Shown here: positions 2,701 to 63,167 of the stretch, piece by piece
How positions within the stretch are numbered: the stretch's first letter is position 1
How the letters are laid out: each line of letters begins with the position of its first letter
Assembly (NCBI GenBank): GCA_020152595.1
Contig: JAIGNY010002845.1
Span: 1,489,001-1,553,000 of the forward strand
From: Chiridota heheva
Lineage: Eukaryota > Echinodermata > Holothuroidea > Apodida > Chiridotidae
DNA length: 64,000 nucleotides
Direction of reading: 5' to 3'
Notes under the pieces: model-generated
Database searches by the model: none
Seen by the model: only the letters and a program-made list of their open reading frames with translations
What the model was told of the DNA's origin: nothing
Translations under genes and position numbers: made by a program

Positions 2701-5439
2701 TTCCAAATACCCAAGCTCTCTTTAAAAAAATGACATAAATTAAATAAAAGGAGTTTTTTTTTTGCGTAACATAAAATGGAATCGCTGAAGTGATGGATTA
2801 ACATAAAAATACTTTGGAATATACAATGATCTTATTTCAGGAAAGCATGGGCATGCGAGAAAGAAATGAAACTCATCTTCGAGTTTGTGCATGTTACAAA
2901 ATGTGCAAGTGCAATTTTACGTGGAATTTTGTTATGACAGCCTTTATGTATTTTGTGATTTAGACAACCACATTTGAAACTTGGATAGCAATGAGCGTAA
3001 TTTGTTGGACTGGATGTGCGAAATGTAAAATTCAAATTCATCATGGGTTTTGATTTCATTATATAAGCAAAGATATTCTATATTCATAGAGTAAATTCTG
3101 TTTTCCCAATCTGGTTATTTATATCAAATTTGTTTTTGCAGGAAACTTGCTAAAAAGAGAGAATTGTTATTAAGACCTTGATTAACTAGACATCCCCAAA
3201 ACCTGTACATAAAAGTATATGTTTAATATCGTGGCCCAGCATGGTATATCATTACTAGCCATGCATAACATGTGTTTATAACAAATAGAGGTAAATCTAT
3301 GATTCTAATGCTTCAGAATCCTTAACCAATACTTAATTTTCTTGTGCATAACAAAGGAAGATAAAAAGGAACGCCCTAATTCACGTATTGCAGATGCGTT
3401 TGCCGAACTACGAGGTAATCCCAACATACATTTACAAAATTTAAATTGAACAAGCTCAATCTGCTTTACACTAAACAACCCCTACATTTTAGAAGCGTAC
3501 ATAATATGGGAAAAATTTTAATGTCAAAGATATATATAACAGGTAAACATTAAAGAAAAAGTCAAACTTATAAACCTAAAACCGAAGAACACATTTTAAA
3601 GAATTACGTAAAGATATTGAGCTGTTTTTTTTATATAATGACATCACAAAGTTTGCCTGAATTCTAAAGTCTTGAAACTTTAATTGGCATAACTCAAAAA
3701 GGAAGCTTTTTCTTCACATATGTAAAACTCCTACTAGACCTTTAACTGATGGTAGTTCATGTAGGGTTAGTCAGTGTGGGATGAAGTTATGTAAGTGACT
3801 GATGAATATAAAATGATATTAATAGACCATGGGCCATAGGCTTAAAAGTGCTTTAGTTTTTTAGTTCTGTAGTCCCGCCAGAGAAGTACTTACAACCTTT
3901 GTAAACATTTAGTGAATATCATTATAAAACAATATTCACATGTTCCCAAGTCCGAAAGTTGCACACTTATGAGAAATTGGGGGGAAAACATTAAGTGTGC
4001 AAGCTCTTTCCTTTCAGTATGCTATCAAGGGGCATTAAAAACAAGGCATCATATTAAGCAGTTTTGCCAGGCCAAGCAAATAATGATATTATATTAGCTT
4101 GCCCTTGCTCTGGGAGCGTGTGATGTGCAATCGATTTTGGCCAAAATTTCCGGAAAGCGGAGGTACACGTCCTGAAGATTAAAACAAACAAGCAGTTTTG
4201 GTTGCTATGTAATTATTTCCCCCAGCAACCAGCATTTAAGTGGTAACTTAGTACAATGAAGGGCAAGAAATATATTGCATAGTGGTTTATAGAACACTAC
4301 AACAACATTTAAGAGCAATATTTTTCGAAATATTTAAAATATATGCTAAAATCTTGGAAAATAGCGATTTTGGTTGCTATGGTATTATACCACTTAACAA
4401 CGGCTCTCAATTTGTTTTTTACATTGATGTTTTTGGTGGAAAACCTTTCTGAACATTCCCCAAATAACCCTAGTATGATCTTGTTTCCATAGAGGACTAA
4501 AGGAAAAGTCCCTTCATTGAAAGGGCCTGGCCCTTGCCCCATAGAGGGCCCAACCCAGCCCTTATCCTGTTGAAGACCCCTAAAACAAACAGATATAATA
4601 TAATTTTTAAATTTGGCCATCCTAAATTTTAACATCAAGTGGGGGTTTGGTTTTAGAATCAACACTGCACTAAGACACTGAATTTCATTGGCAGGGCCTC
4701 ACATACCATCAACTTTGGGCCAATACCACTGCAGTGTATATAACGTGCAAGTAGTTCTATAGACATACACTCTAATAAGTAAAATACATTGCATAACTTT
4801 TTTCACTCCATAAACACAAACAAGATAATACAGCAAAAGTCTGTCGAATTCTTAACGAGAAGAAGACTTTACTTATAATCCTGCAGATGACAAGACTGGA
4901 ACTTACACAGTATGAGTGTGAGATGGATTTACAATATATGCAAGGTTGAACAAGATCCTTTACAAACAAAATATGTTTGTGGTCAATCATGGCGGACTAA
5001 AACACAAAACTAAAATCGCAATTCACGAAAGTACTGTTGATTTTTACCAGAATATAAACTGCCAACTGAATTAAAGAATTTACTCTTTCCAAGAAACTGA
5101 GGTTTCGTTAATCATAACAGAAAATATCAAATTTCAAATCATGTTCAATACACATCAAATTATCACCTGACAGGTTAATTGTGCTTGTACCAACAAATTA
5201 ACAAGATTTTTAGTTTTCATAATAGAAAACAAGGATTTCAAAATAATGACCAAGATAACTTTGTATCCAGTTATTGTTTGGCAGGCAGAATTACTTGCTT
5301 TCAGTTATACATAAATTGAAAAATACAAATTTCATGGAATAACATACAATATACAAACATAAATATCAGTTATCATTTGACCAGTGGAATGCGCTTTTCA
5401 AATTAATGATCATTTTTTCTATATTCATGTACCCACTAC

Positions 5440-6150
5440 TGGAAGGGCAAATGACTCATTCAAAAAAACTGCAAGGTTTCTCAGCTCAACGAAATAAAAA
5501 AGCTTATTCGAAGGACTAACATAATCAATATACTGTTTATGCAGAATGCATTAATCAAATGGAAGGCCGAATGCAGTCATTACAGCAAACTGCAAGATTT
5601 CTCTGTTCATCATAATAAAAATGAGAAATTTCAAGGAATAACATATTGTCAATATACATACAGCAATAAGATTGACATGCGGAATGTGCCTGTTCACAAT
5701 ATATTGAAAATAAGTATGAAATTCCAAACAAGTGTCAAATTGTTGCAGTTGAAAATTACATTTTCAAATAATGTTTACCACATTCAGTAATCAATATATC
5801 AACTGGAAGGCTAAAATGCACTCATTCCAGCAAACTGCAAGATTTCTAAGTTTATCATAACACAAAATTGAATGCACTTGTTCCAAACAAGTGCAAGGTT
5901 GTTAAAGTTTAAATAACAACAAATAATGTTTTCAAATAATCATAATAATGTTCAACATCCAGTAATCAGGTCATCAGCTGGCAGGCTGAATGCACTCCTT
6001 CCAGCAACTGTAAGATTTCTCAGTCCATTATAATCAAAATATAATGTACTTGTTCCAAAAAATGCAAGGTTGCTACAGTTTAAATAAGAGAAAAAATATT
6101 TTCAAATAATAGTATTAATAATGTTCAACATTTAATAATGAGGTTATCAA
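5440..6150. repeat. degenerate tandem repeats, about 120-250 bp spacing
   Basis: The phrase GCAAGRTTTCT recurs near 5471, 5592, 5838 and 6009. Around each lie GGAAGGC/GGCAGGC, CATTCCAGCAAACTG and later ACTTGTTCCAAA words in the same order. The last two units are about 175 bp. Strongly diverged, so an old array. Confidence 0.5.
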
Positions 6151-11200: not shown

Positions 11201-11290
11201 TCCTGCTACTTTCACTCCAGTCTCAGGTATTCCTGAAAGAGAATGGTATCAAATAATAATTCAAAGTCATGTCTGACATATTTTGCTGTG

Positions 11291-11760
11291 TAAATTGTGT
11301 AATTGCAACAGTTTGTAAATTGTGTAATTGCAACAGTTTGTAAATTGTGTAATTGCAACAGTTTGTAAATTGTGTAATTGCAACAGTTTGTAAATTGTGT
11401 AATTGCAACAGTTTGTAAATTGTGTAATTGCAACAGTTTGTAAATTGTGTAATTGCAACAGTTTGTAAATTGTGTAATTGCAACAGTTTGTAAATTGTGT
11501 AATTGCAACAGTTTGTAAATTGTGTAATTGCAACAGTTTGTAAATTGTGTAATTGCAACAGTTTGTAAATTGTGTAATTGCAACAGTTTGTAAATTGTGT
11601 AATTGCAACAGTTTGTAAATTGTGTAATTGCAACAGTTTGTAAATTGTGTAATTGCAACAGTTTGTAAATTGTGTAATTGCAACAGTTTGTAAATTGTGT
11701 AATTGCAACAGTTTGTAAATTGTGTAATTGCAACAGTTTGTAAATTGTGTAATTGCAACA
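11291..11760. repeat. 25-bp minisatellite, 18.8 perfect copies
   Basis: Eighteen complete head-to-tail 25-bp units plus a 20-bp partial one. Each begins TAAATTGTGTAATTGCAACA and ends GTTTG. By eye I find no substitution or indel anywhere in the array. Because 25 is not a multiple of 3 and the unit lacks stops on the minus strand, long open frames run through all three minus frames; these are artefacts. Such uniformity implies very recent expansion or efficient homogenisation. Confidence 0.95.
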
Positions 11761-16084: not shown

Positions 16085-16600
16085 TCAAGGCATCCACGGC
16101 TGTTTTATTAACCAGTTGTGGGGAATTGTATAGAGACCCACCTGTGATCGAACCAGGGATGGTAGATTAGAAAGTGGAAAGCGATCATTACATCAAGACA
16201 TCCATGGTTGTTTTATTAACCAGTTGTGGGGAATTGTGTAGAGACCCACCTGGGATTGAACCAGGGATGGTAGATTAGAAAGTGGGAAGCGATCACTACA
16301 TCAAGATGTCCACGGCTGTTTTATTAACCAGTTGTGGGGCATTGTGCAGACCCACCTGGGATTAAACCAGAGATAGAAGATTAGAAAGTGGGAAGTGATC
16401 ATTACATCAAGATGTCCACGGCTGTTATATTAAACAGTTGTGGGAAATTGTGTAGAGACCCACCTGGGATCGAACCATAGATGGTAGATTTGAAAGTGGG
16501 AGGCGATCACTACATCAAGATGTCCATGGCTGTTTTATTAACCAGTTGTGAAAAATTGTGTAGAGACCCACCTGGGATCAAACCAGGGATAAAAATGGGA
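16085..16600 (-). repeat. tandem array of five 108-bp tRNA-like units
   Basis: Units recur with a period of about 106-108 bp (anchor words at 16091, 16199, 16307, 16413, 16521). On the minus strand the better-preserved copies contain CCTGGTTCGATCCCAGG, a B box inside a perfect 5-bp T stem, preceded by AGTGATCGC, a candidate A-box region. So this is a tandemly amplified tRNA-derived (SINE-head-like) sequence directly beside a SINE. Copies differ by scattered substitutions, and the T stem decays in the outer units. Confidence 0.75.
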
Positions 16601-20975: not shown

Positions 20976-21860
20976 AGTGAGCATGGTGGGTAATGGTGGG
21001 TCCATGCCATATGGGACAGTTTTGGGAATTTCTCAGAAAATGTCAGTGTTCCTCAGGATGCCAGATATCCTAATGGAAGGGACAAAATGGTGGGATGCCA
21101 GATTGAAGACTAGTTTCCTTAAAAAGGATTTCATACTTAGAAGGGTGGGATGCCAATATTCTTCAGGGATCCGTGTGACAGGGTGGGATGCCAGGGAGGG
21201 ATGGGACACGGGTGGGATGCCATGGGACACGGGGTGGGATGCCATGTGGGACACGGGGTAGGATGCCATGTGGGACACGGGTGGGATGCCATGTGGGACA
21301 CGGGGTGGGATGCCATGTGGGACACGGGGTGGGATGCCATGTGGGACACGGGGTGGGATGCCATGTGGGACACGGGTGGGATGCCATATGGGACACGGGG
21401 TGGGATGCCATGTGGGGCACGGGTGGGATGCCATATGGGACACGGGGTGGGATGCTATATGGGACACAGGGTGGGATGCTATGTGGGACACGGGGTGGGA
21501 TGCCATGTGGTGGGATGCCATGTAGGGACGCGGGGTGGGATGCCGTGTGGGACGCGGGGTGGGATGCCGCATGGGACGCGGGGTGGGATGCCGTGTGGGA
21601 CGGGGGGCGGGATGTCGTGTGGGACGCGGGGGGATGCTGTGGGATGCGGGGTGGGATGCCATGTGGGACTCGGGGTGGGATGCCATGTGGGACACGGGAT
21701 GGGATGCCATGTGAGATAGGTGTGGGATGCCATGTGGGACAAGGGGTGGTGGGATGCCATGTGGGACATGGGGTGGAATGTCATGTGGGAGATATGGTGG
21801 AATGCCATGTGGGAGATGTGGTGGAATGCCATGTGGGATAAGGGATGGAATGCCATGTGG
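20976..21860. repeat. 24-bp G-rich minisatellite
   Basis: About 28 units of GGGTGGGATGCCATGTGGGA-CACG with variants; a G-poor leader begins near 20976 and the dense array runs from about 21180. One strand is strongly G-rich with repeated GGG runs at short spacing. The unit is close to 24 bp, so long frames run on both strands (for example HPVSHMAS repeats on the minus strand); with no codon-level signal I treat them as artefacts. The array abuts and partly enters the 3.2-kb tandem duplication. Confidence 0.92.
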
Positions 21861-22761
21861 GACATGGGATACCATGTGGAGCTTCGTGTGAGATGCCATA
21901 TTTATAATTGGCCGGGTCGATATGGTGTCAATTTGCATGGGCATGCAAACCAAGACGGTATTAACCACTTTAGTTTAATAGTAAAACCTGCTAGAAAAAT
22001 AAATTGATGAAAGCTAGGTATTTATATACATTGCCAAACATACCATACTTCAATAAATTTTGGAAAATTGCTTCTAATCATACAGAAACAACCAATTAAC
22101 GCTCAAAGAAATACATAAAAAAATTCTATGGAATTACCTGTATGACATTATCAAATACCAATTCATCATACTGTACAAAAGCTTTAAATGCATTTAGGAA
22201 ATCTTTAAAATCCATATCTCCTGAACGGAATATGATATCAACCTGATTTTTGTACCAAATTGGCTCTAAAAGTATGCTCTTTTAAATACAATTTTACAAA
22301 AAAATCATCGGAATATTCCTTTAAGTGATATGGCTTGGAAGATAATATTCCTAATGGATTAGAGATAAAACTGATACTTAAAGAAGCCCTCGGCCGAAAT
22401 TTGAGGGCATGTTATTCTGGAGACTTTTCTTGCATTATGTGATAGTGTGAAATTTTGACATAAAAGTTAAAATCGACCGCATTTATTTGAAGTGAATGCT
22501 TAATTAATTTTCAACAAAATAGACATTTGGACTCAAAATGTCCCAAAATACAAACAAATATTGCTACCCATTTTTTGTTTCATTATTATTATTTCAATCG
22601 ATTCCAGACCTGGCAACCTTTAGGATCACCAAACTGTATTCTGGAACTACAAAAGTTGTTTTTTTGATAAGAAAAACTACTCTTCAAACAAAATGTACAA
22701 AACAAATGTTTACTGTGGCTGAAAAAAAATTACTACTGTACTTTCAGTTTCTCTTATTGTA

Positions 22762-22850
22762 CGAATCTGAATCGGTTAAGTCGGCAAAATCAATCCTTTA
22801 AGAGGAAATGAACGCCAACCGAGCGTAAAAAGTATGAGTAAAAAAAAATA
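22762..22850 (-). mobile_element. CR1-like 3' tail fragment (unit A)
   Basis: On the minus strand: a TACTCATACTTTTTACGCTC-like stretch, GTTCATTTCCTCTTAAAGG, GCCGACTTAACCGATTCAG. This matches the 3' end of the element at 33.65-34.05 kb. Only about 90 bp survive. Confidence 0.65.
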
Positions 22851-23345
22851 TAAAAAAAATAAATTAAAAAAAATAGATAAAATAAATCGTTATTCTGGTG
22901 CCAAAAAACGTACAATCGTATTCTCAACATTTTCCCGTATTAAATACGGCAAAATCGTACTAGTTGGCAGGTCTGCAATTTGACTTTCTTACTTATCAGA
23001 TTTTTCATGACTTTGAATTAGGGACTTAGGAGGATGGGTCACCTCACAGTAAAAACCCAAACACTTCCTGGTTAAAAGCAGCGAAATCGAACAGGTAAAA
23101 TTACACGTGAAATTTCCTATAAATTGAGTAAATTGACTGTTTACTGAGTAATTTTTTGTTTAAGTGTGTCAATGTACAGTTTGATAAATTCCACAATTAA
23201 ACTCCCAATCAGGAAGTAAGCATACAAACAGGAAAGTAAATTCCTTTCAAAGGGAAAGGTATGCCCCCCTCCTCTTATCTCACCCCTTAAGACTCCTTTG
23301 CTGGTTTGAAAAGTGAAGCAAGATATATTGCCACAAGATATTCAA

Positions 23346-24134
23346 TCATGGTTCAAAAGGATGGAATTCTCTCATGGAATCGAACCAGTAAACATCCGCC
23401 TCTCGAAGCCGGATTTCACCAATGTCTTCGATCATCTCTCCCAACTTTTCAAGTTCCTTTTCTACAGCAGACAAATCATTTTCAGGTATGTGTTTATATT
23501 TGTATACCAGGCTTATATGGAAACTGATCTTTGACAAAGTACTATCCTCGAGTGATAACAGTTCAGAAAATAATTTTCTTTGGTGGTACGTTTTGGCCGT
23601 ATCGTCTTCTTTCAACTGTGGCATAATCTTGATTACTTTTACGTTTGATGGGGTGAGTGGCTTGCCTTCAAAAATAAACTCACCAGAAGCAATATTTCTG
23701 CAAATTTCTCTTGCTTGAAGAAACTGTTGAGCAACGGCAGCTGAATCTGGCAAACCTTTCACCGGAAGGGAATTACCCTTGTTCAACCAATTACGTATTG
23801 CAGGAATAGGCTCGCGCACCTCACACCAAATGTCAAACACGGTCATGTGATAACTAGAAGCTGGCAGGGCCGTGTAGTACTTACTCAATATAGAACTCTG
23901 TATAAACCTTTCTAACATTTCCAATTTATGATCAATTTCACACATTCGAATGATGGTGTATCCGTAAAATGGCACATACTTCCCTTTTCCGTCCATCTTT
24001 CGAATTTCAATACCTTTCAGAATAGTGCTACCTCCTCTTTGGTCAAAAATAAATTTATAGACTATAAAATCTATGAATATGGAAAGGAAAACAAAGAATG
24101 TTGTCCGAAGCAAGATGACACAGTTCTGCCTCAT
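23346..24134 (-). CDS. membrane-anchored 2H phosphodiesterase (DUF1868-like), copy A
   Basis: 262 residues. Residues 5-29 form an N-terminal hydrophobic anchor after a short basic start, followed by a short stalk and the catalytic domain from about residue 50. The two signature motifs of 2H phosphoesterases are present: SSYHMTVF (H96, T98) and SFHISLVY (H206, S208), 110 residues apart. GKYVPFYGYTII and YYTALPASSYHMTVF resemble the DUF1868 branch of the superfamily. 2H enzymes act on 2',3'-cyclic phosphates, cyclic nucleotides or 2'-5' linked oligonucleotides; the substrate here cannot be inferred. I chose the ATG at 24132-24134 because it is the one Met conserved in all three copies; an in-frame ATG 17 codons upstream is ATA in copy B. 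The 5' UTR appears split by a 78-bp intron. Confidence 0.82.
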   Translation of the reverse strand: MRQNCVILLRTTFFVFLSIFIDFIVYKFIFDQRGGSTILKGIEIRKMDGKGKYVPFYGYTIIRMCEIDHKLEMLERFIQSSILSKYYTALPASSYHMTVFDIWCEVREPIPAIRNWLNKGNSLPVKGLPDSAAVAQQFLQAREICRNIASGEFIFEGKPLTPSNVKVIKIMPQLKEDDTAKTYHQRKLFSELLSLEDSTLSKISFHISLVYKYKHIPENDLSAVEKELEKLGEMIEDIGEIRLREADVYWFDSMREFHPFEP

Positions 24135-24249
24135 TGTTCTTGTGGTTCTGCAAGCTGAGTAAAGATGATGTGAGCTCAAACCCATTTGTCAGAGCTAAAA
24201 TACCAGAATATCTCTCACCGCTCTTGATTGGCCTCACCAAACAAAGTAC

Positions 24250-24327
24250 CTGTAGAAGAAGAAATACATAGGACTGCAGAAAACATTTCTTTAAATAATT
24301 AGTAACACCTCTGGGAACATTACTTAC
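24250..24327 (-). other. probable 78-bp 5'-UTR intron of copy A
   Basis: On the minus strand a donor CAT|GTAAGT (GT at 24327-24326) and an acceptor TTCTTCTACAG (ending 24250) flank 78 bp. An ATG just upstream of the donor opens a frame that overlaps the coding start in another frame, spliced or not (24055-24354). Unit B keeps the acceptor, but its donor has changed to GTAACT. Confidence 0.5.
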
Positions 24328-24339
24328 ATGTAGTTTGTC

Positions 24340-24880
24340 TATATCGAAAATCATGAAGAAAATGTTTTTTTTATTAATAATTGGTCAACAGGGCTACACA
24401 ATTTTTTGAATTTTCAAAAGCAATTATTTAGTGAACATTTAGAAATATTCTACAATATAGGGGTAAGTATAGAAATCAGGTTCTCTTTTGGAAAATACCC
24501 CCTTGTCACAAGCTTCCAAGGTCCATTAAGTATGGAATGCTGTAATATCAATAGAGGACTCCTACGTAATTCAAAAAGCTGAATCAAACTTCGAATATGG
24601 ATATTGCGGCTTGTGTCGCAAGGTGAAAAAAGAAGTCTTCCTGTAATAAAGGACTTGTTGCAAGAACTTCTTAATATTTTAAGTCAAAACTAGGTTCATG
24701 GCTTAACCCCGGCTTGTGTTGCACAGTCGCGACGTGGACGGAGTTATGGATTGTACTGAGCTTAAATAGAGAAGGATGCATATTCATGTGTGATAAATGA
24801 GGTAAATGGAGCGTGATCATGCGACTGACACTAGTCAGGGGAACATGTTCTACTGGAGTATTACAATATATATAATTATA
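24340..24880 (-). promoter_or_regulatory. upstream region of 2H-phosphodiesterase copy A
   Basis: Blocks here recur in unit B (27580-28130) and, diverged, at 39080-39560. They include (minus strand) TCACGCTCCATT, CATGAATATGCAT, TTTTGACTTAA and CAAGCCGGGGTTA. A TATTTAA-like word (minus TCTATTTAAGCTC, near 24760) could serve as a TATA element. The transcription start is not determined. Confidence 0.45.
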
Positions 24881-25994
24881 ATACAATTATTATACATATA
24901 TAATTATATTACAATTTTTGGAAATTTGAAGATCAGGGTAAGGAGAATTCTAAAAGAAGGAAATTCAAATAAATTATGAAAAGAGCATGCCTACCCATGT
25001 CCGAAGTAAGACAGAAGACACCGATTGAATCGTAGAAAACAACACTTTATTGAGGGAAATTACAAGGGATGGAATGCCATGTGGGACATGGGATGCCATG
25101 TGGAGCTTCGTGTGAGATGCCATTTCTATAATTGGCCGGGTCGATATGGTGTCAATTTGCATGGGCATGCAAACCAAGACGGTATTAACCACTTTAGTTT
25201 AATAGTAGAACCTGCTAGAAAAATAAATTGATGAAAGCTAGGTATTTATATACATTGCCAAAGATACCCTACTTCAATAAATTTTGGAAAATTGCTTCTA
25301 ATCATACAGAAACAACCAATTAACGCTCAATGAAATACATAAACATTTTCTATGGAATTACCTGTATGACATCATCAAACACCAATTCATCATACTGTAC
25401 AAAAGCTTTAAATGCACTTAGGAAATCTTTAAAATCCATATCTCCTGAACGGAATATGATTTCAACCTGATTTTTGTACCAAATTGGCTCTAAAAGTATG
25501 CTCTTTTAAATACAATTTTACAAAAAAAAATCATCGGAATATTCCTTTGAGTGATATGGCTTGGTAGATAATATTCCTAATGGATCAGAGATAAAACTGA
25601 TACTTGAAGAAGCCCTCGGCCGAAAGTTGAGGGCATGTTATTCTGGAGACTTTTCTTGCATTATGTGATAGTGTGAAATTTTGACATAAAAGTTAAAATC
25701 GACCGCATTTATTTGAAGTGAATGCTTAATTAATTTTCAACAAAATAAACATTTGGACTCAAAATGTCCCAAAATACAAACTACAAACAAATATTGCTAC
25801 CCATTTTTTGTTTCATTATTATTATTTCAATCGATTCCAGACCTGCCAACCTTTAGGATCACCAAACTGTATTCTTGAACTACAAAAGTTGTATTTTTGA
25901 TAAGAAAAACTACTCTTCAAACAAAATGTACAAAACAAACGTTTACTGTGGCTGAAAAAAAATTACTACTGTACTTTCAGTTTCTCTAATTGTA

Positions 25995-26090
25995 CGAATC
26001 TGAATCTGAATCGGTTAAGTCGGCAAAATCAATCCTTTAAGAGAACATGAACGCCAACCGAGCGTAAAAAGTATGAGTAAAAAAAAATAT
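25995..26090 (-). mobile_element. CR1-like 3' tail fragment (unit B)
   Basis: Duplicate of the unit-A fragment. It has one extra GATTCA tail unit, and the A-rich stretch beyond it is shorter. Confidence 0.65.
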
Positions 26091-26569
26091 ATAAAAAAAA
26101 TAGATAAAATAAATCGTATTCTGGTGCCAAAAAACGTACAATCGTATTCTCAACATTTTCCCGTATTAAATACGGCAAAATCGTACTAGTTGGCAGGTCT
26201 GCAATTTGACTTTCTTACTTATCAGATTTTTCATGACTTTGAATTAGGGACTTAGGATGGGTCACCTCACAGTAAAAACCCAAACACTTCCTGGTTAAAA
26301 GCAGCGAAATTGAACAGGTAAAATTGCGCGTGAAATTTCCTATAAATTGAGTAAATTTACTGTTTACTGAGTAATTTTTTGTTTAAGTGTATCAATGTTC
26401 AGTTTGATAAATTCCACAATTAAACTCCCAATCAGGAAGTAAGCATACAAACAGGAAAGTAAATTCCTCTCAAAGGGAAAAATATGCCCCCCCCCCTTCC
26501 ATCTCACCCCTTAAGACTCCTTTGCTGGTTTGAAAAGTAAAGCAAGATATATTGCCACAAGATATTCAA

Positions 26570-27358
26570 TCATGGTTCAAAAGGATGGAATTCTCTCATG
26601 GAATCGAACCAGTAAACATCTGCCTCTCGAAGCCGGATTTCACCAATGTCTTCGATCATCTCTCCCAACTTTTCAAGTTCCTTTTCTACAGCAGACAAAT
26701 CGTCTTCAGGTATGTGTTTATATTTGTACGCCAGGCTTATATGGAAACTGATCTTCGACAAAGTACTATCCTCGAGTGATAACAGTTCAGAAAATAATTT
26801 TCTTTGGTGGTACGTTTTGGCGGTATCGTCTTCTTTCAACTGTGGCATAATCTTGATCACTTTTACGTTTGATGGGGTGAGTGGCTTGCCTTCAAAAATA
26901 AACTCACCAGAAGCAATATTTCTGCAAATTTCTCTTGCTTGAAGAAACTGTTGAGCAATGGCAGCTGAATCTGGCAAACCTTTCACCGGAAGGGAATTAC
27001 CCTTGTTCAACCAATTACGTATTGCAGGAATAGGCTCGCGCACCTCACTCCAAATGTCGAACACGGTCATGTGATAACTAGAAGCTGGCAGGGCCGTGTA
27101 GTACTTACTCAATATAGAACTCTGTATAAACCTTTCTAACATTTCCAATTTATGATCAATTTCACACATTCGAATGATGGTGTATCCGTAAAATGGCACT
27201 TACTTCCCTTTTCCGTCCATCTTTCGAATTTCAATACCTTTTAGAATAGTGGTACCTCCTCTTTGGTCAAAATTAAATTTATAGACTATAAAACCTATGA
27301 ATATGGAAAGGAAAACAAAGAATGTTGTCCGAAGCAAGATGACACAGTTCTGCCTCAT
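26570..27358 (-). pseudogene. 2H phosphodiesterase copy B, interrupted by one stop codon
   Basis: Same layout and length as copy A: anchor, stalk, HMTV and HISL motifs all readable. Codon 53 (Tyr in copies A and C) is TAA at 27200-27202, just before the catalytic domain. Downstream the frame stays open to the end, with 209 uninterrupted codons, so the loss looks recent. At three protein positions where A and B differ (A: C, V, N; B: S, A, D) B agrees with copy C, so A carries the derived residues. The nonsense base also creates a perfect donor word GTAAGT. It could instead be a sequencing error or a polymorphic null. Confidence 0.8.
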
Positions 27359-27579
27359 TGTTCTTGTGGTTCTGCAAGCTGAGTAAAGATGATGTGAGCT
27401 CAAACCTATTTGTCAGAGCTAAAATACCAGAATATCTGTCATCGCTCTTGATTGGCCTCACCAAACAAAGTACCTGTAGAAGGAGAAATACATAGGACTG
27501 CAGAAAACATTTCTTTAAATAATCAATTACACCTCTGGGAACATTAGTTACATGTAGTTTGTCTATATCGAAAATCATG

Positions 27580-28130
27580 AAATCCATTAATAATTGGTCA
27601 ACAGGGCTACACAATTTTTTAAATTTTCAAAAACAATTATTTAGTGAACATTTAGAAATATTCTACATTATAGGAGTAACTGTAGAAATCAGGTTCTCTT
27701 TTGGAAAATACCCCCTTGTCACAAGCTTCCAAGGTCCATTAAGTATGGAATGATGTAATATCAATAGAGGACTCCTACGTAGTTCAAAAAGCTGAATCAA
27801 ACTTCGAATATGGATATTGCGGCTTGTGTCGCAAGGTGAAAAAAGAAGTCTTCCTTTAATAAAGGACTTGTTGCAAGAACTTCTTAATATTTTAAGTCAA
27901 AACTAGGTTCATGGCTTAACCCCGGCTTGTGTTGCACAGTCGCGACGTGTAAGGAGTTATGGATTGTACTGAGCTTAAATAGAAAAGGATGCATATTCAT
28001 GTGTGATAGATAAATGAGGTAAATGGAGCGTGATCATGCGACTGACACTAGTCAGGGGAACATGTTCTACTGGAGTATTACAATATATATAATTATAATA
28101 CAATTATTATACATATATAATTATATTACA
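27580..28130 (-). promoter_or_regulatory. upstream region of copy B
   Basis: Near-identical to 24340-24880, with a few substitutions and a 4-bp insertion (GATAGATA near 28008). Confidence 0.4.
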
Positions 28131-28275
28131 ATTTTTGGAAATTTGAAGATCAGGGTAAGGAGAATTCTAAAAGTAGGAAAATCAAATAAATTATGAAAAG
28201 AGCATGCCTACCCATGTCCGAAGTAAGACAGAAGACACCGATTGAATCGTAGAAAACAACACTTTATTGAGGGAA

Positions 28276-35790: not shown

Positions 35791-37980
35791 GCTTTTTACA
35801 CTAGATTTATAAGAGTAGTCTGCCATACAGAACCTGGCTGCTCTCCTTTGAATAGATTCAAATTTATCCACATCGCACTGGTGATGGGGGTCCCAGATTG
35901 CAGATGCGTACTCAAGTACTGGCCTGACTAGAGCTTTATAAGCAGTAGATTTAACGTCGGTGGGACAGTTTGAGAGGTTATGTTTTAATAGGCTAAGTAC
36001 AGACTTAGCTTTCTTGTTTATGTTTTGTATATGTTTACCCCATCTAAGTTTATTATCAATTTCAACGCCTAGGTATGGGTGGGAGTTGACATGTTGTAGT
36101 GGCTGGTTGCAAAAGGTATAAACAGGTGATTTAAAGCATTTCTTAGAGGAAAAATGACAAGATGTAGCATTTAGAGGGGTTGAAATTCATTTGCCATTTG
36201 TTTTGCCATTGTTCAAGTTTGTTAAGATCATCTTGGAGGATTTGTTGGTCAGAGGGGTTATCAATTGTTCTGTACACAAGGCAGTCATCAGCAAACAGTC
36301 TAAGTGTGCTGTTTATATCATCAGGGATGTCATTTACATATAAAAGGAAAAGTAATGGACCCAAAACAGTACCTTGTGGTACACCGGATAAAACCTGTTT
36401 AGAATCAGAGATTTCACCATCACAGACAACACGCTGGATGCAGTTGTTGAGGAATGATGCAAACCAGGCCAGGAGATTTTCATTAATGCCATAGGCGGAA
36501 AGTTTGGATAACTGGCGCTGGTGTGGGACTTTATCAAACGCTTTTGAGAAGTCAAGAATAGCCATAGAGACGTTACTGTTTTGGTCAATTTGTTTAGAGA
36601 TATCATTTATTGTTATGAGGAGTTGTGTTTCAGTCGATCTTTTTGCACGAAAGCCATGTTGTAATTCAGTTATGCTCATCAAGGAATTTCATCACATGTG
36701 AGTAGATTATATGCTCAAGGATTTTACTACAAACGCAGGTGAGAGCAATAGGTCTGTAATTAGCTGGGTTTTGTTTATCACCTTTTTAAAAACGCTACAT
36801 ATGTTTGCTTCTTTCCACTTGTTAGGGATAGTACCATTATTGACAGAGGTTTGAAAGGGATCAGTTAGAATTTCATATAGGTCATCAGCGTGTGTTTTTT
36901 GAAACCATGGTGGTATTTGATCAGTACCTGAGGCTTTGTTGGGGTCTAGGTCATGCAGCTGCTTTTTGACACCTTCTGGGGTAATTATAAGTTGGTTTAT
37001 TTTGCTGTTGGTGAGTGGTTAAGTTACAGGCATTTGGGAGGTGTTTTCTTCTGTGAAAACACTGAAAAACTGGTCATTTAGAATGTTAGCTTTAGTTTTA
37101 CTGTCACTGCAGAGTTTACCATTATTTAGTAGATCAGACACACCTACAGAGTTACTTCTTAATCTTTTGATATAGGACCAGAAAGCCTTAGGGTTTTTGT
37201 AAAGTGAGTTTTTAAGTTTATCACATATGAAGGTGTTTCTAGCTTCTTTGAGGTTTTTACGGACAGCCTTCCTAAAGCTTTCATAGGTAGTCCAGTTATT
37301 GGATTGTTAATTAGTCTTAGCTTTTTTAAACAGTTTATGTTTTTTCCTGCAGAGACGGCGTTGGATACGGGTGAACCAGGGCAGATTTAGTTTAGTTGAG
37401 GTAAATTTGTGAGGCGTGTTTTTAACAATAATCAATTTAATTTCCTGTTCAAAGAAATTCCATTTTCATCAACATCAATGGAGTTATAGAATTGAGTATG
37501 ATATTGCAGTTTAAATTTGGTCAGGTCTTCTTTTATTCGTTTTATGTTAGCTTTTTTCTTTAAATAGATTTTACGTTTAGGCAACGTTTTACGAGGAGGG
37601 AAGATATTTAGGGTCAGTTCAACAATATCATGGTCACTTATACCAAAGAGCTTCTGCTTATACCGGGAATGACATTAGCTGAGGTAACAGCTGGTGAATT
37701 GTTAGTAAAAACAAGATCAAGGATGTTGTTATCTCTGGTGGGTGACTGCACCATTTGAGTGAGGTATAATAAATTGGTCACTTCAAGAAGAATTTTGATT
37801 GCTTCGGAGAAACAAGGAGTCGGACTGAAGCCTGAAGGATTGTTTTTCGTACAGGGCATGCAGACCTATGATTGTCTGACTGTGAGACCACGTTTGCGGT
37901 TGAAAGAGGTTTGAATAGTCTACAGTGAAGAATTTTATAACAAAAAAGCCTGGAGGACCAAGGTGGTATCAACTATTATG
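35791..37980 (-). mobile_element. CR1-like element, endonuclease end to RT thumb
   Basis: In minus-strand order: the C-terminal part of an APE-type endonuclease (SPTRDNNILDLVF near 37740, SDHDIV near 37625-37640), a linker, RT motifs, then LEYASAIWDPHHQCDVDKF and RRAARFC near 35820-35910. The element is cut off within the endonuclease near 37980, so it is 5'-truncated, and it carries several frameshifts (one near 36675). It continues at 33655-34055 beyond the nested insertion. Confidence 0.85.
36143..36682 (-). pseudogene. reverse transcriptase core of the CR1-like element
   Basis: 179 codons open. Motif A is ILDFSKAFDKVPH, motif B is LSGVPQGTVLGPLLF, and motif C is LFADDCLVYR with both catalytic aspartates. 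Upstream sequence (GFRAKRSTETQL) is the finger motif. A frameshift separates it from the N-terminal RT portion, so the protein cannot be made as is. Confidence 0.85.
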
Positions 37981-52859: not shown

Positions 52860-54240
52860 GTTACTCTACAAGGTAACATACCAACTGCATGGACCAAGAG
52901 TGAAATTATACCTATACCAAAGAAAGGTGACCTTGGTGTGACCAGTAACTACAGGGGTATTAGCCGTACATGCATCTCAGCAAAGATCTTTAACAAACTA
53001 TTGTTACATCGTATCCGAGCACACATTGAACCGTTTCTTCGTAACAATCAGAATGGTTTTAGACCAAAACGGGGCACAATATCGCAAATTTTGACACTTC
53101 GCAGACTCATTGAAGGCATAAAGGCAGAAACCTACCTGCGGTGCTCACTTTTGTTGATTTTCGCAAGGCTTTTAATAGTATTCATCGTGAAAAAATGCTG
53201 CAAATCCTCCTTGCTTATGGTATACCGCCTTTCATTGTCAATGCCATTGGTATTATGTATAGAAACACAACAGCAAGGGTCAGAAGTCCTGATGGTGATA
53301 CGGACTTTTTCCAAATTCTGGCCGGAGTTCTACAGGGAGACACTCTTGCTCCCTTCCTGTTTATCATAACACTCGACTATGCTTTGAGGAAAGCTATGGA
53401 GAACCATGAACACCTGGGTTTCACCTTGAAGCAACGGCAGAGCAGACGCCACCCATCTACAACATTAACTGACACTGATTTTGCAGATGACATTGCGCTG
53501 CTGTCAGACAACATTGCTGATGCTGAACATCTATTACACAGAGTTGAACAGGCTGCCAAAAAGGTTGGTCTGACCATAAATAGTCAAAAGACTGAGTACA
53601 TGATGTACAACCATCAACAAGCTAGCCTCAAGGACATTAACGGTACCACTTTAAAGCAAGTCATCAACTTTCAGTATCTTGGTTCGTGGGTAGACTCCAC
53701 CAAGAAAGACATAGATGTCCGAATTGGAAAAGCATGGACTGCCTGTTCCAAGCTGAGCAACATATGGCGTAGTGATCTCTCCAGAGATCTCAAAATCAAT
53801 TTCTTTAAGGCAGCTGTTGAAAGTGTGCTGTTGTATGGATCTGAGGGGTGGACTATGACAAATGCACTTTCAAGGAGACTGGATGGTACGTACACAAAAT
53901 TGCTGAGATTTGCCCTTAGTGTGTCATGGCAACAGCACCTCCCAAACCGCCAACTTTATGGAAACTTACAGCCTATTTCTGAAGTCATCCAGGCAAGGCG
54001 CCTTAAATTTGCTGGCCACTGTTGGAGGAGCAGAGATGAAGTCATACATCAGACACTTCTCTTGGACCCAAAACATGGAAAAAGAAGTCGTGGTAGGCCA
54101 GCAATAACCTACTTTGATGTTTTTGAGAAGGACACTGGAATTAAAAGAGATGTCCTGCCAGGTGCCATGGATGATCGCAAGCAGTGGAGAATCTTTGTCG
54201 GCAGTGCCCGAGTTCGCTCGATATGATGATGATGATTAAG
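52860..54240 (+). mobile_element. RTE-like non-LTR retrotransposon, 5'-truncated
   Basis: Begins within the RT N-terminus (IPIPKKGDLGVTSNYRGIS; NQNGFRPKRGTISQI). A one-base frame change lies near 53130. RT motifs A to C and a long C-terminus follow, with no endonuclease. The 3' end is a (TGA)n run (54224-54236). Short tandem 3' tails of this sort are typical of RTE-type elements. Confidence 0.85.
53141..54226 (+). pseudogene. reverse transcriptase and C-terminus of the RTE-like element
   Basis: 361 open codons (the first is GTG, an arbitrary limit set by the upstream frame change). FVDFRKAF at 4-11 is motif A, LAGVLQGDTLAPFLF around 60-74 is motif B, and FADDIAL at 114-120 is motif C with both aspartates. 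The C-terminal GHCWRSRDE and KRSRGRPAITYFDVF belong to the same protein type. The stop TGA (54224-54226) is the first unit of the 3' tail. The length of intact frame suggests a fairly young insertion. Confidence 0.85.
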
Positions 54241-61009: not shown

Positions 61010-62320
61010 GACAGAGGTTAGAAACAATTAGTATCGTTTCGTTGTTAATGTTCCAACAGAGTTCAGCTGTACAGTTATTGCAATAAAACAGAAACTAGCC
61101 CTATAAAATTTACCGTGAATAATTTATTTCATTCTTGGATAAGTTAATAAAACACCTGTTCTTATTGATTATCTTTATTGATTATCTCATTAAAGGAAAC
61201 CGCTTGTTATCAATTACCCTTAAGATGAGTTGGAGATGGAAATGCGTGTGGATTTTTGGGGATAGGAATGAAACTTTCAATTTTTAATTGCAGTCCTTTA
61301 CTTCCAAGTCCCCTTCCCTCCCATCACGAGTTTATAATCTATGGTTTACTCTTCTCTTTAAACTTTAAGGCACACATATGTGCGTCCAGTGCATGTAAGG
61401 TACCACAAAACTAATTATTTGCCCCATCGATACCTCAATAAAATCGTCTAGTTTGGGGTCCCTTTAGTACCAGAATGCGAAAGATATGGGATAGTTTGTA
61501 ATGTTTTCTGAAAGTATTTCGGATGATGATAATTTCAATAGTGGTACACTTGAGGTATCTCATTTACACACCCACACCCATTCATACATGTGTAACACAA
61601 AACCAGGTCGCGTATATATGCTGCGTGAACACTCTTCCACATAGCAAGCAGGTAAAGTATAATGATGGCCGCGCACTTTTGAACACTAAATCACGAAAAA
61701 ACTGAACAATAGATGACTGTTTTCAATTTATTTGTAGCGCCATCTGTTAATCTTTGGAATAATTTGTAGGCAACTCGTACCAAAGACTAGATGGTTGGTT
61801 CCATCCTGAGACAATTGATGTGGTTTTGCGACAAATCCTCGAAAGCATAGATAAAACAAACGCACGATTTTGAAAAAACAGTTTTTCTTCTATCATATAT
61901 AAAAATGCATTTTCGTGTTTTTTAGCCAGATTGATTTAACATTAATATGACAGTAATGTTTCTGATAGCTTTTTTAATCTTTAAACATCTATATTCAAAT
62001 TTGTGCTGTATGTAAAAGTTCTTTACTGTTTATCTCATTAAAAGAAACCACTTGTTATCAATTACCCATTAAGATGAGATGAATAGGCAAGATGAAGGGA
62101 CAAAATGAACGAGAGAGATTGAGGAATATATGTCAAAAAAGGCACGACTATTATGAAATTCGGCCATGACCTTCTTTATTAGTTTATAAACGCCGAGCTT
62201 TTGTCTAATCTAACTGTCTAAAGGAGCATAATTTACATAGTAAAGCATTGGCGAAAAACAAGAGACTTTGATGGATTATAGTCTCTAGTGATAAGTAAAG
62301 CAAGAAATATTGTCACAAGA
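61010..62320. other. no gene seen
   Basis: AT-rich. GTTATCAATTACCCTTAAGA at 61207 has a near-copy at 62053 (AACCRCTTGTTATCAATTACC), a dispersed short repeat. Confidence 0.45.
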
Positions 62321-62327
62321 TGTCCAA

Positions 62328-63167
62328 TTATGGTTCAAAAGGATGGAAATCTGTCATGGAATCGAACCAGTAAACATTTGCCCCTCGAAGCCAGATTTCT
62401 TTAATGTCTTCGATCATTTCTCCCAACTTTTCGAGTTCCTTTTCTACATCAGACAAATCATCTTCACTTATGTGTTTATATTTGTACGCCAGGCTTATAT
62501 GGAAACCGATCTTCGACAAATTACTATCTTCGTGTGAAAAAAGTTCAGAAAATAGCTTTCTTTGGTGGTTCGTTTTGGCCGTATCGTCTTCTTTCAACTG
62601 TGGCATAATCTTGATCACTTTCACGTTTGATGGGGTGTGTGGCTTGCTTTCAACAATAAACTCACCAGAAGCAATATTTCTGCAAATTTGTCTTGCTTGA
62701 AGAAACTGTTGAGCAACGGCAGCTGAATCTGGCAAACCTTTCACCGGAAGGGAATTACCCTTGTTCAACCAATAAGGTATTGCAGGAATAGGCTCGCGCG
62801 CCTCACTCCAAATGTTGAACACGGTCATGTGATAACTAGAAGCTGGCAGGGCCGTGTAGTACTTACTCAATATAGAACTCTGTATAAACCTTTCTAACAT
62901 TTCCAATTTAGGATCAATTTCACACATTCGAATGATGGTGAATCCGTAAAATGGCACATACTTCCCTTTTCGGTCCATCTTTCGAGTTTCAATACCTTTC
63001 TGTACATCCCTTTGACTTCCAGTGTTAGAAAGACCACCTAGGATAGAGGAGCTCCCTCCTCTGTGTTTACAAATGAATTTATAGACCATAAAACTGATGA
63101 ATATAAAAATAATTAAAACGAATTTTGTCCGAGGGAAGGAAACACTTTTATTCCAGACCAGCCACAT
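62328..63167 (-). CDS. membrane-anchored 2H phosphodiesterase (DUF1868-like), copy C
   Basis: 279 residues: a hydrophobic anchor at about 14-33 (TKFVLIIFIFISFMVYKFIC), a stalk about 18 residues longer than in copy A, then the catalytic domain with YHMTVF (H113, T115) and FHISLAY (H223, S225). From KGIE onward about 28 of some 220 residues differ from copy A, while the N-terminal third barely aligns. The start chosen is the ATG at 63165-63167, equivalent to the conserved Met of A and B; the frame extends upstream but without ATG. An acceptor TTCTTATGCAG ends at 63252, homologous to that of copy A, so the 5' UTR is probably spliced too. No stop or frameshift, so it is likely functional. Confidence 0.85.
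   Translation of the reverse strand: MWLVWNKSVSFPRTKFVLIIFIFISFMVYKFICKHRGGSSSILGGLSNTGSQRDVQKGIETRKMDRKGKYVPFYGFTIIRMCEIDPKLEMLERFIQSSILSKYYTALPASSYHMTVFNIWSEAREPIPAIPYWLNKGNSLPVKGLPDSAAVAQQFLQARQICRNIASGEFIVESKPHTPSNVKVIKIMPQLKEDDTAKTNHQRKLFSELFSHEDSNLSKIGFHISLAYKYKHISEDDLSDVEKELEKLGEMIEDIKEIWLRGANVYWFDSMTDFHPFEP

Follow-up and report, generated by a model that had tools for sequence, protein, structure and literature searches.

A DUF1868-family 2H phosphoesterase gene with a likely membrane anchor in a three-copy cluster of Chiridota heheva

The stretch of DNA considered here comprises 64,000 nucleotides of the holothuroid Chiridota heheva (assembly GCA_020152595.1, contig JAIGNY010002845.1, positions 1,489,001 to 1,553,000 of the forward strand) and is referred to as the window. 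Its minus strand carries an open gene, copy 1, whose protein joins a hydrophobic N-terminal segment to a catalytic domain of the 2H type, belonging to the family DUF1868. In the genome (1.1 Gb, 3744 contigs), this family was found at three places, all inside the 64-kb window and all on the minus strand. A larger family within the genome was considered and rejected: the protein search gave a fourth place, but this 71-residue match (E 0.23) contains a stop and was taken as chance. The three copies and the features connected with them are listed below in window coordinates.

23346..24134, minus strand: copy 1, open gene of 262 amino acids (aa); signal-anchor-like helix and DUF1868/2H catalytic domain with H96xT, H206xS and R186
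26570..27358, minus strand: copy 2, tandem to copy 1 and near-identical; a single in-frame TAA separates the anchor from the catalytic core
62328..63167, minus strand: copy 3, open gene of 279 aa; its anchor has diverged and its linker is longer; core DNA shares 93% identity with copies 1 and 2
21840..24983, no strand: duplication unit with copy 1, 96% identical to 25064-28200
25064..28200, no strand: duplication unit with copy 2, about 3.2 kb, as the unit of copy 1
62289..63000, minus strand: block of copy 3, 712 bp, matching copies 1 and 2 at 93% identity, ending near the KGIE codons and 39 bp past the stop
24250..24264, minus strand: pyrimidine-rich stretch with CAG at its end, located upstream of the start and similar in all three copies (by eye)

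The membership of the encoded protein in the DUF1868 family and its 2H fold are almost certain. Copy 1 matches PF08975 (DUF1868, '2H-phosphodiest') with 31.1 bits at residues 47-107, above the curated cut-off of 21 bits, which is also passed by copy 3 (28.3 bits) and by the 209-aa part of copy 2 (25.5 bits); all three matches cover the first half of the model only. A four-sequence profile, made from both open copies and two relatives from Rhizobium, found a single PDB entry at E <=0.1, namely 2fsq (Atu0111). This entry is matched at E 7.6e-30 across profile positions 33-242, and the alignment pairs both histidine motifs. In addition, the modelled domain of copy 1 superposes on solved 2H structures, with H96 opening the strand 96-104 and H206 directly preceding the strand 207-212. 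The original prediction had described a 2H gene with both HxT/HxS motifs (H96-x-T98, H206-x-S208) and a hydrophobic segment. This observation is confirmed, as H96-M-T98 and H206-I-S208 lie within one sequence, and the 2H fold claimed there holds in the family match, the profile match and the superposition; a profile search, which could have refuted the claim, did not place the protein outside the fold. The motif pair alone is not decisive, since two such motifs 60-150 residues apart appeared in 6.5% of 20,000 shuffles of the copy 1 protein. The phmmer search of PDB with the copy 1 protein alone returned three weak non-2H matches and no 2fsq; because even 2fsq was missed, the lack of 2H matches there says little. 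Copy 1 had no match in NCBIfam.

The encoded protein is likely anchored at the membrane by its N-terminal segment. Residues 11-25 of copy 1 have a mean Kyte-Doolittle value of 2.27 and lie within a modelled helix of residues 2-32, which bears out the hydrophobic segment of the earlier claim. The start ATG of copy 1 has a counterpart in all three copies, and the pyrimidine-rich stretch upstream of it is a possible acceptor of a putative intron in the 5′ untranslated region. Copy 1 contains four cysteines and no N-x-S/T sequon; copy 3 contains three cysteines and two sequons, one before the helix and one in the catalytic part.

Copy 2 is either a pseudogene or an assembly error. The simplest reading of the 712-bp block of copy 3, which rests on few sites, is a probable gene-conversion tract. 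The nonsynonymous and synonymous divergence (dN/dS) of the 39 N-terminal codons between copies 1 and 2 is 0.034/0.040 (four changes), and that of 26 anchor codons between copies 1 and 3 is 0.26/0.47. None of 14 control genomes contained PF08975. At the edge of the copy 1 duplication unit lies a GC-rich minisatellite (window 21202-21868; 24-bp unit, 28.5 copies), which is open in several frames.

Relatives of the protein are mostly bacterial. In a collection of 84,980 species, a relative is encoded in 40 of 134 stretches that matched the search patterns, and these bacterial loci fall in Pseudomonadota, Chloroflexota and one Bacillota. Because the patterns include HMTVF or FH[IL]S, part of the motif invariance among the relatives follows from the search itself. 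A scan of viral contigs with the single protein found none, and a scan with the alignment found one IMG/VR contig, L052, which completes the set of 41 relatives. L052, in which an ABC ATPase gene adjoins the DUF1868 gene, is probably bacterial DNA. At E 1, tblastn gave two matches in 72,556 plasmid records, both from Rhizobium (E 3e-6 and 0.2), and none in 50,697 phage records; a phage or viral origin was thus rejected, the sole IMG/VR match being bacterial-looking. In the midpoint-rooted tree of the two open copies and 43 other rows (42 bacterial and the IMG/VR contig), the copies are set off by a branch of length 4.1, and their letter make-up was flagged as unlike that of the other rows. Recent transfer from a sampled bacterium is not supported by such a branch. 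Vertical descent and an old transfer are both compatible with the tree and cannot be told apart, its rows beyond the two copies holding no eukaryote.

The original prediction also considered the anchor unusual among 2H enzymes. This is only partly right, because a Tat-like N-terminal signal was recognized, by eye and by hydrophobicity, in 14 of the 41 relatives; the RR pattern had flagged 13 of 45 rows, from which L046 was dropped as not hydrophobic, and L047 and L048 were added. The tree shows these Tat-type relatives at three separate positions, and the forks between them are not all well supported. Pantoea ananatis LMG 2665 (L019, L026) and P. allii LMG 24248 (L037, L035) each carry two DUF1868 genes, one of the Tat type and one signal-less.

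The neighbouring genes of the bacterial relatives were taken as the longest open reading frames (ORFs), and the Pfam search covered plus-strand ORFs, 28 of them upstream and 27 downstream, hand-picked from the 41 loci and in several cases not immediately adjacent. TonB receptors were found in 6/28 upstream and 1/27 downstream neighbours, solute-binding proteins (6/28) and ABC ATPases (5/28) upstream, and Inositol_P in 1/28 upstream and 4/27 downstream neighbours. The downstream set also held single cases of a glycerol-3-phosphate antiterminator and a Na/Pi cotransporter. The Pfam counts are not tied to loci, and the assignment to loci was made by phmmer; L040 and L047 were taken as TonB loci, as they match each other and complete the Pfam count of six, and L017, whose ATPase-like ORF lies five places upstream, was left out of the ABC count. 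A TonB receptor adjoins seven of the 14 Tat-type loci versus none of the 27 others (Fisher p 0.00015), ABC uptake genes lie near none of the Tat-type loci versus 16 of the 27 others (p 0.00014), and Inositol_P is present in five loci, all among the 16 with ABC genes (p 0.006), all three p-values overstating the significance because the loci are related and not independent. An example of such an arrangement is the plasmid locus L008, outside the 41, with the gene order binding protein, permease, permease, ATPase, DUF1868, Inositol_P. The uptake genes beside many bacterial relatives favour a small phosphate of a sugar or polyol as the substrate over an immune messenger.

The eukaryotic copies can be compared with several known systems. 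Atu0111 of Agrobacterium tumefaciens, a DUF1868 protein of unknown function, is 17% identical to the protein described here. It differs from the eukaryotic copies, which carry a hydrophobic segment at the N terminus and have other residues in place of the N in GNT, the G following HMTVFx and the Y in YxFH. The Tat-type proteins encoded beside TonB receptors (L013 in Gluconacetobacter, L048 in Methylobacterium) likewise place the domain behind an N-terminal hydrophobic export segment, but this is a Tat-like signal where the eukaryotic copies have a long hydrophobic helix, and the tree sets them on a branch separate from these copies. The signal-less proteins of ABC operons with Inositol_P (L008, L028) share the catalytic domain, whereas they lack the hydrophobic segment and are encoded with uptake genes. 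AccF of Agrobacterium belongs to another phosphodiesterase family. The acc genes for agrocinopine encode the importer AccA-E, the phosphodiesterase AccF and the phosphatase AccG, according to an excerpt of PMC4526662. As far as that excerpt describes it, agrocinopine catabolism is an analogue only, in its succession of uptake, phosphodiesterase and phosphatase, and is not taken as a relative. The 2H fold is held in common with AKAP7/AKAP18, an oyster 2H enzyme, Usb1 and CNPase, as seen by structure comparison for AKAP18, Usb1 and CNPase.

The two histidines of 2H enzymes generally provide the acid and the base, and the substrate is either a cyclic phosphate or a phosphodiester that has a hydroxyl next to it. 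In the protein described here, H96 and H206 would be the general base and acid of a metal-free reaction, in which the target phosphodiester either carries a vicinal hydroxyl or is cyclic from the outset, and a small soluble substrate is opened to a monophosphate. The N-terminal segment would hold the catalytic domain at the membrane, with the lumenal or outer face somewhat favoured. The bacterial enzymes, judging by their operons, would convert an imported small phosphodiester to a monophosphate, and a phosphatase would finish the pathway in some of them. The best explanation overall, to which we give a probability of roughly 0.4, is a membrane-tethered DUF1868-family 2H phosphoesterase, in a three-copy cluster, acting on a small phosphodiester. 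The class of the substrate is tentative; the uptake operons suggest a small, soluble compound in which a sugar, polyol or nucleoside bears a phosphodiester or a cyclic phosphate. By analogy with the Tat-type bacterial members, it is plausible that the catalytic domain of the eukaryotic enzyme faces outward or into a lumen. The narrower proposal of a lumen- or outward-facing eukaryotic DUF1868 enzyme that opens a sugar or polyol phosphodiester, cyclic or with a vicinal hydroxyl, such as inositol or glycerol cyclic phosphate, is rather unlikely in this exact form, and it parallels the exported bacterial proteins beside TonB receptors.

Other roles were weighed against the small-phosphodiester reading. 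The RNA-end, second-messenger or immune role of the original prediction is not supported, as the recognized neighbours of the bacterial relatives are mostly uptake genes. A membrane-tethered hydrolase of an RNA-end or nucleotide 2′,3′-cyclic phosphate, analogous to myelin CNPase, is unlikely, though the least so of the rivals; CNPase is not the nearest relative of copy 1 among solved structures. The protein could also be an immune regulator of the kind of AKAP7, viral ns2/VP3 and phage Acb1, with 2′-5′ oligoadenylate or a cyclic dinucleotide as the molecule that it degrades. AKAP7 and its tested viral relatives are metal-independent and leave 2′,3′-cyclic ends, according to an excerpt of PMC8406329. 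AKAP7 shares the 2H fold and is also not the nearest solved relative of copy 1, and among the roles considered the immune one is the least probable. A small-molecule phosphodiester is the better bet, itself held with less than even confidence. The copies could also be drifting toward pseudogenes, with their activity gone. Such decay agrees with the in-frame stop within copy 2, with the catalytic core dN/dS of 0.060/0.097 for copies 1 and 3 (ratio ~0.6) and 0.056/0.073 for copies 2 and 3 (ratio ~0.8), and with the absence of five near-invariant residues. However, copies 1 and 3 have uninterrupted frames of 262 and 279 codons and keep both motifs and R186, the core dN/dS of copies 1 and 2 is 0.0076/0.053 (ratio ~0.14), and the absence of the five residues is common to both open copies, though gene conversion could have spread it. 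A decaying family is thus improbable.

Several observations, among them the relatedness of the bacterial loci and the two high core ratios given above, weigh against a tethered enzyme for a small phosphodiester. In alignment A5, which sets the two open copies against 40 other rows (39 bacterial, one IMG/VR), both copies keep H96, T98, R186, F205, H206 and Y211 among other residues, but lack F47 (present in 39/40 rows), N59 (39/40), G102 (38/40), R183 (39/40) and Y203 (40/40), a near-invariant set derived from these bacterial rows and not from a published definition. The substrate may therefore have shifted, and together with the long branch of the two copies this suggests that the bacterial substrate may not be carried over to the eukaryotic copies. 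The neighbourhoods are also mixed, as 18 of the 41 loci have neither TonB nor ABC genes nearby and chemoreceptor domains occur in 3/28 upstream neighbours. With regard to the anchor, positive residues on both sides of the copy 1 helix make the face of the membrane ambiguous, and 8% of random open mutants reach a hydrophobicity like that of the copy 3 anchor.

The remaining window contains repeats and reverse transcriptase fragments. A 25-bp unit is repeated in 18.9 copies with 100% matches at 11289-11760, pointing to very recent expansion or to an effect of the assembly. A 108-bp unit (4.6 copies, 16093-16590) holds, by eye, a stretch resembling tRNA box B; neither Rfam nor ARAGORN placed a tRNA at this repeat, and neither the Rfam search nor the ARAGORN tRNA scan found anything elsewhere. 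RVT_1 fragments lie at 36143-36682 (minus), 52938-53369 (plus) and 53141-54226 (plus), of which two exceed the Pfam cut-off and one falls just short of it. The ratio of observed to expected CpG is 0.54. In the 20-kb flanks on either side, where stop-to-stop frames of at least 95 aa were inspected by eye and no family search was made, only a reverse-transcriptase-like frame in L056 was recognized. Just beyond the window, L055 contains at 3353-5596 (minus) a tandem repeat of about 2.2 kb with three open minus frames and SQEVRISGGSYLRRFV-like units.

In the literature searched, which covers few subscription papers, no paper mentioned DUF1868 or PF08975, and none combined a 2H phosphodiesterase with an invertebrate. 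Atu0111 appeared in one paper, whose available part lists it in a table of structural relatives as of unknown function (PMC3290555). As far as the searches reach, the anchored eukaryotic protein is a variant of the already known 2H/DUF1868 type. DUF1868 is a poorly studied family with a solved structure, for which no function was found in that literature. The split of its relatives, between Tat-type proteins beside TonB receptors and signal-less proteins beside ABC genes, some with inositol-family phosphatases, yields a short list of candidate substrates for the family, and the tethered eukaryotic form poses the question of why the same fold would be held at a membrane.
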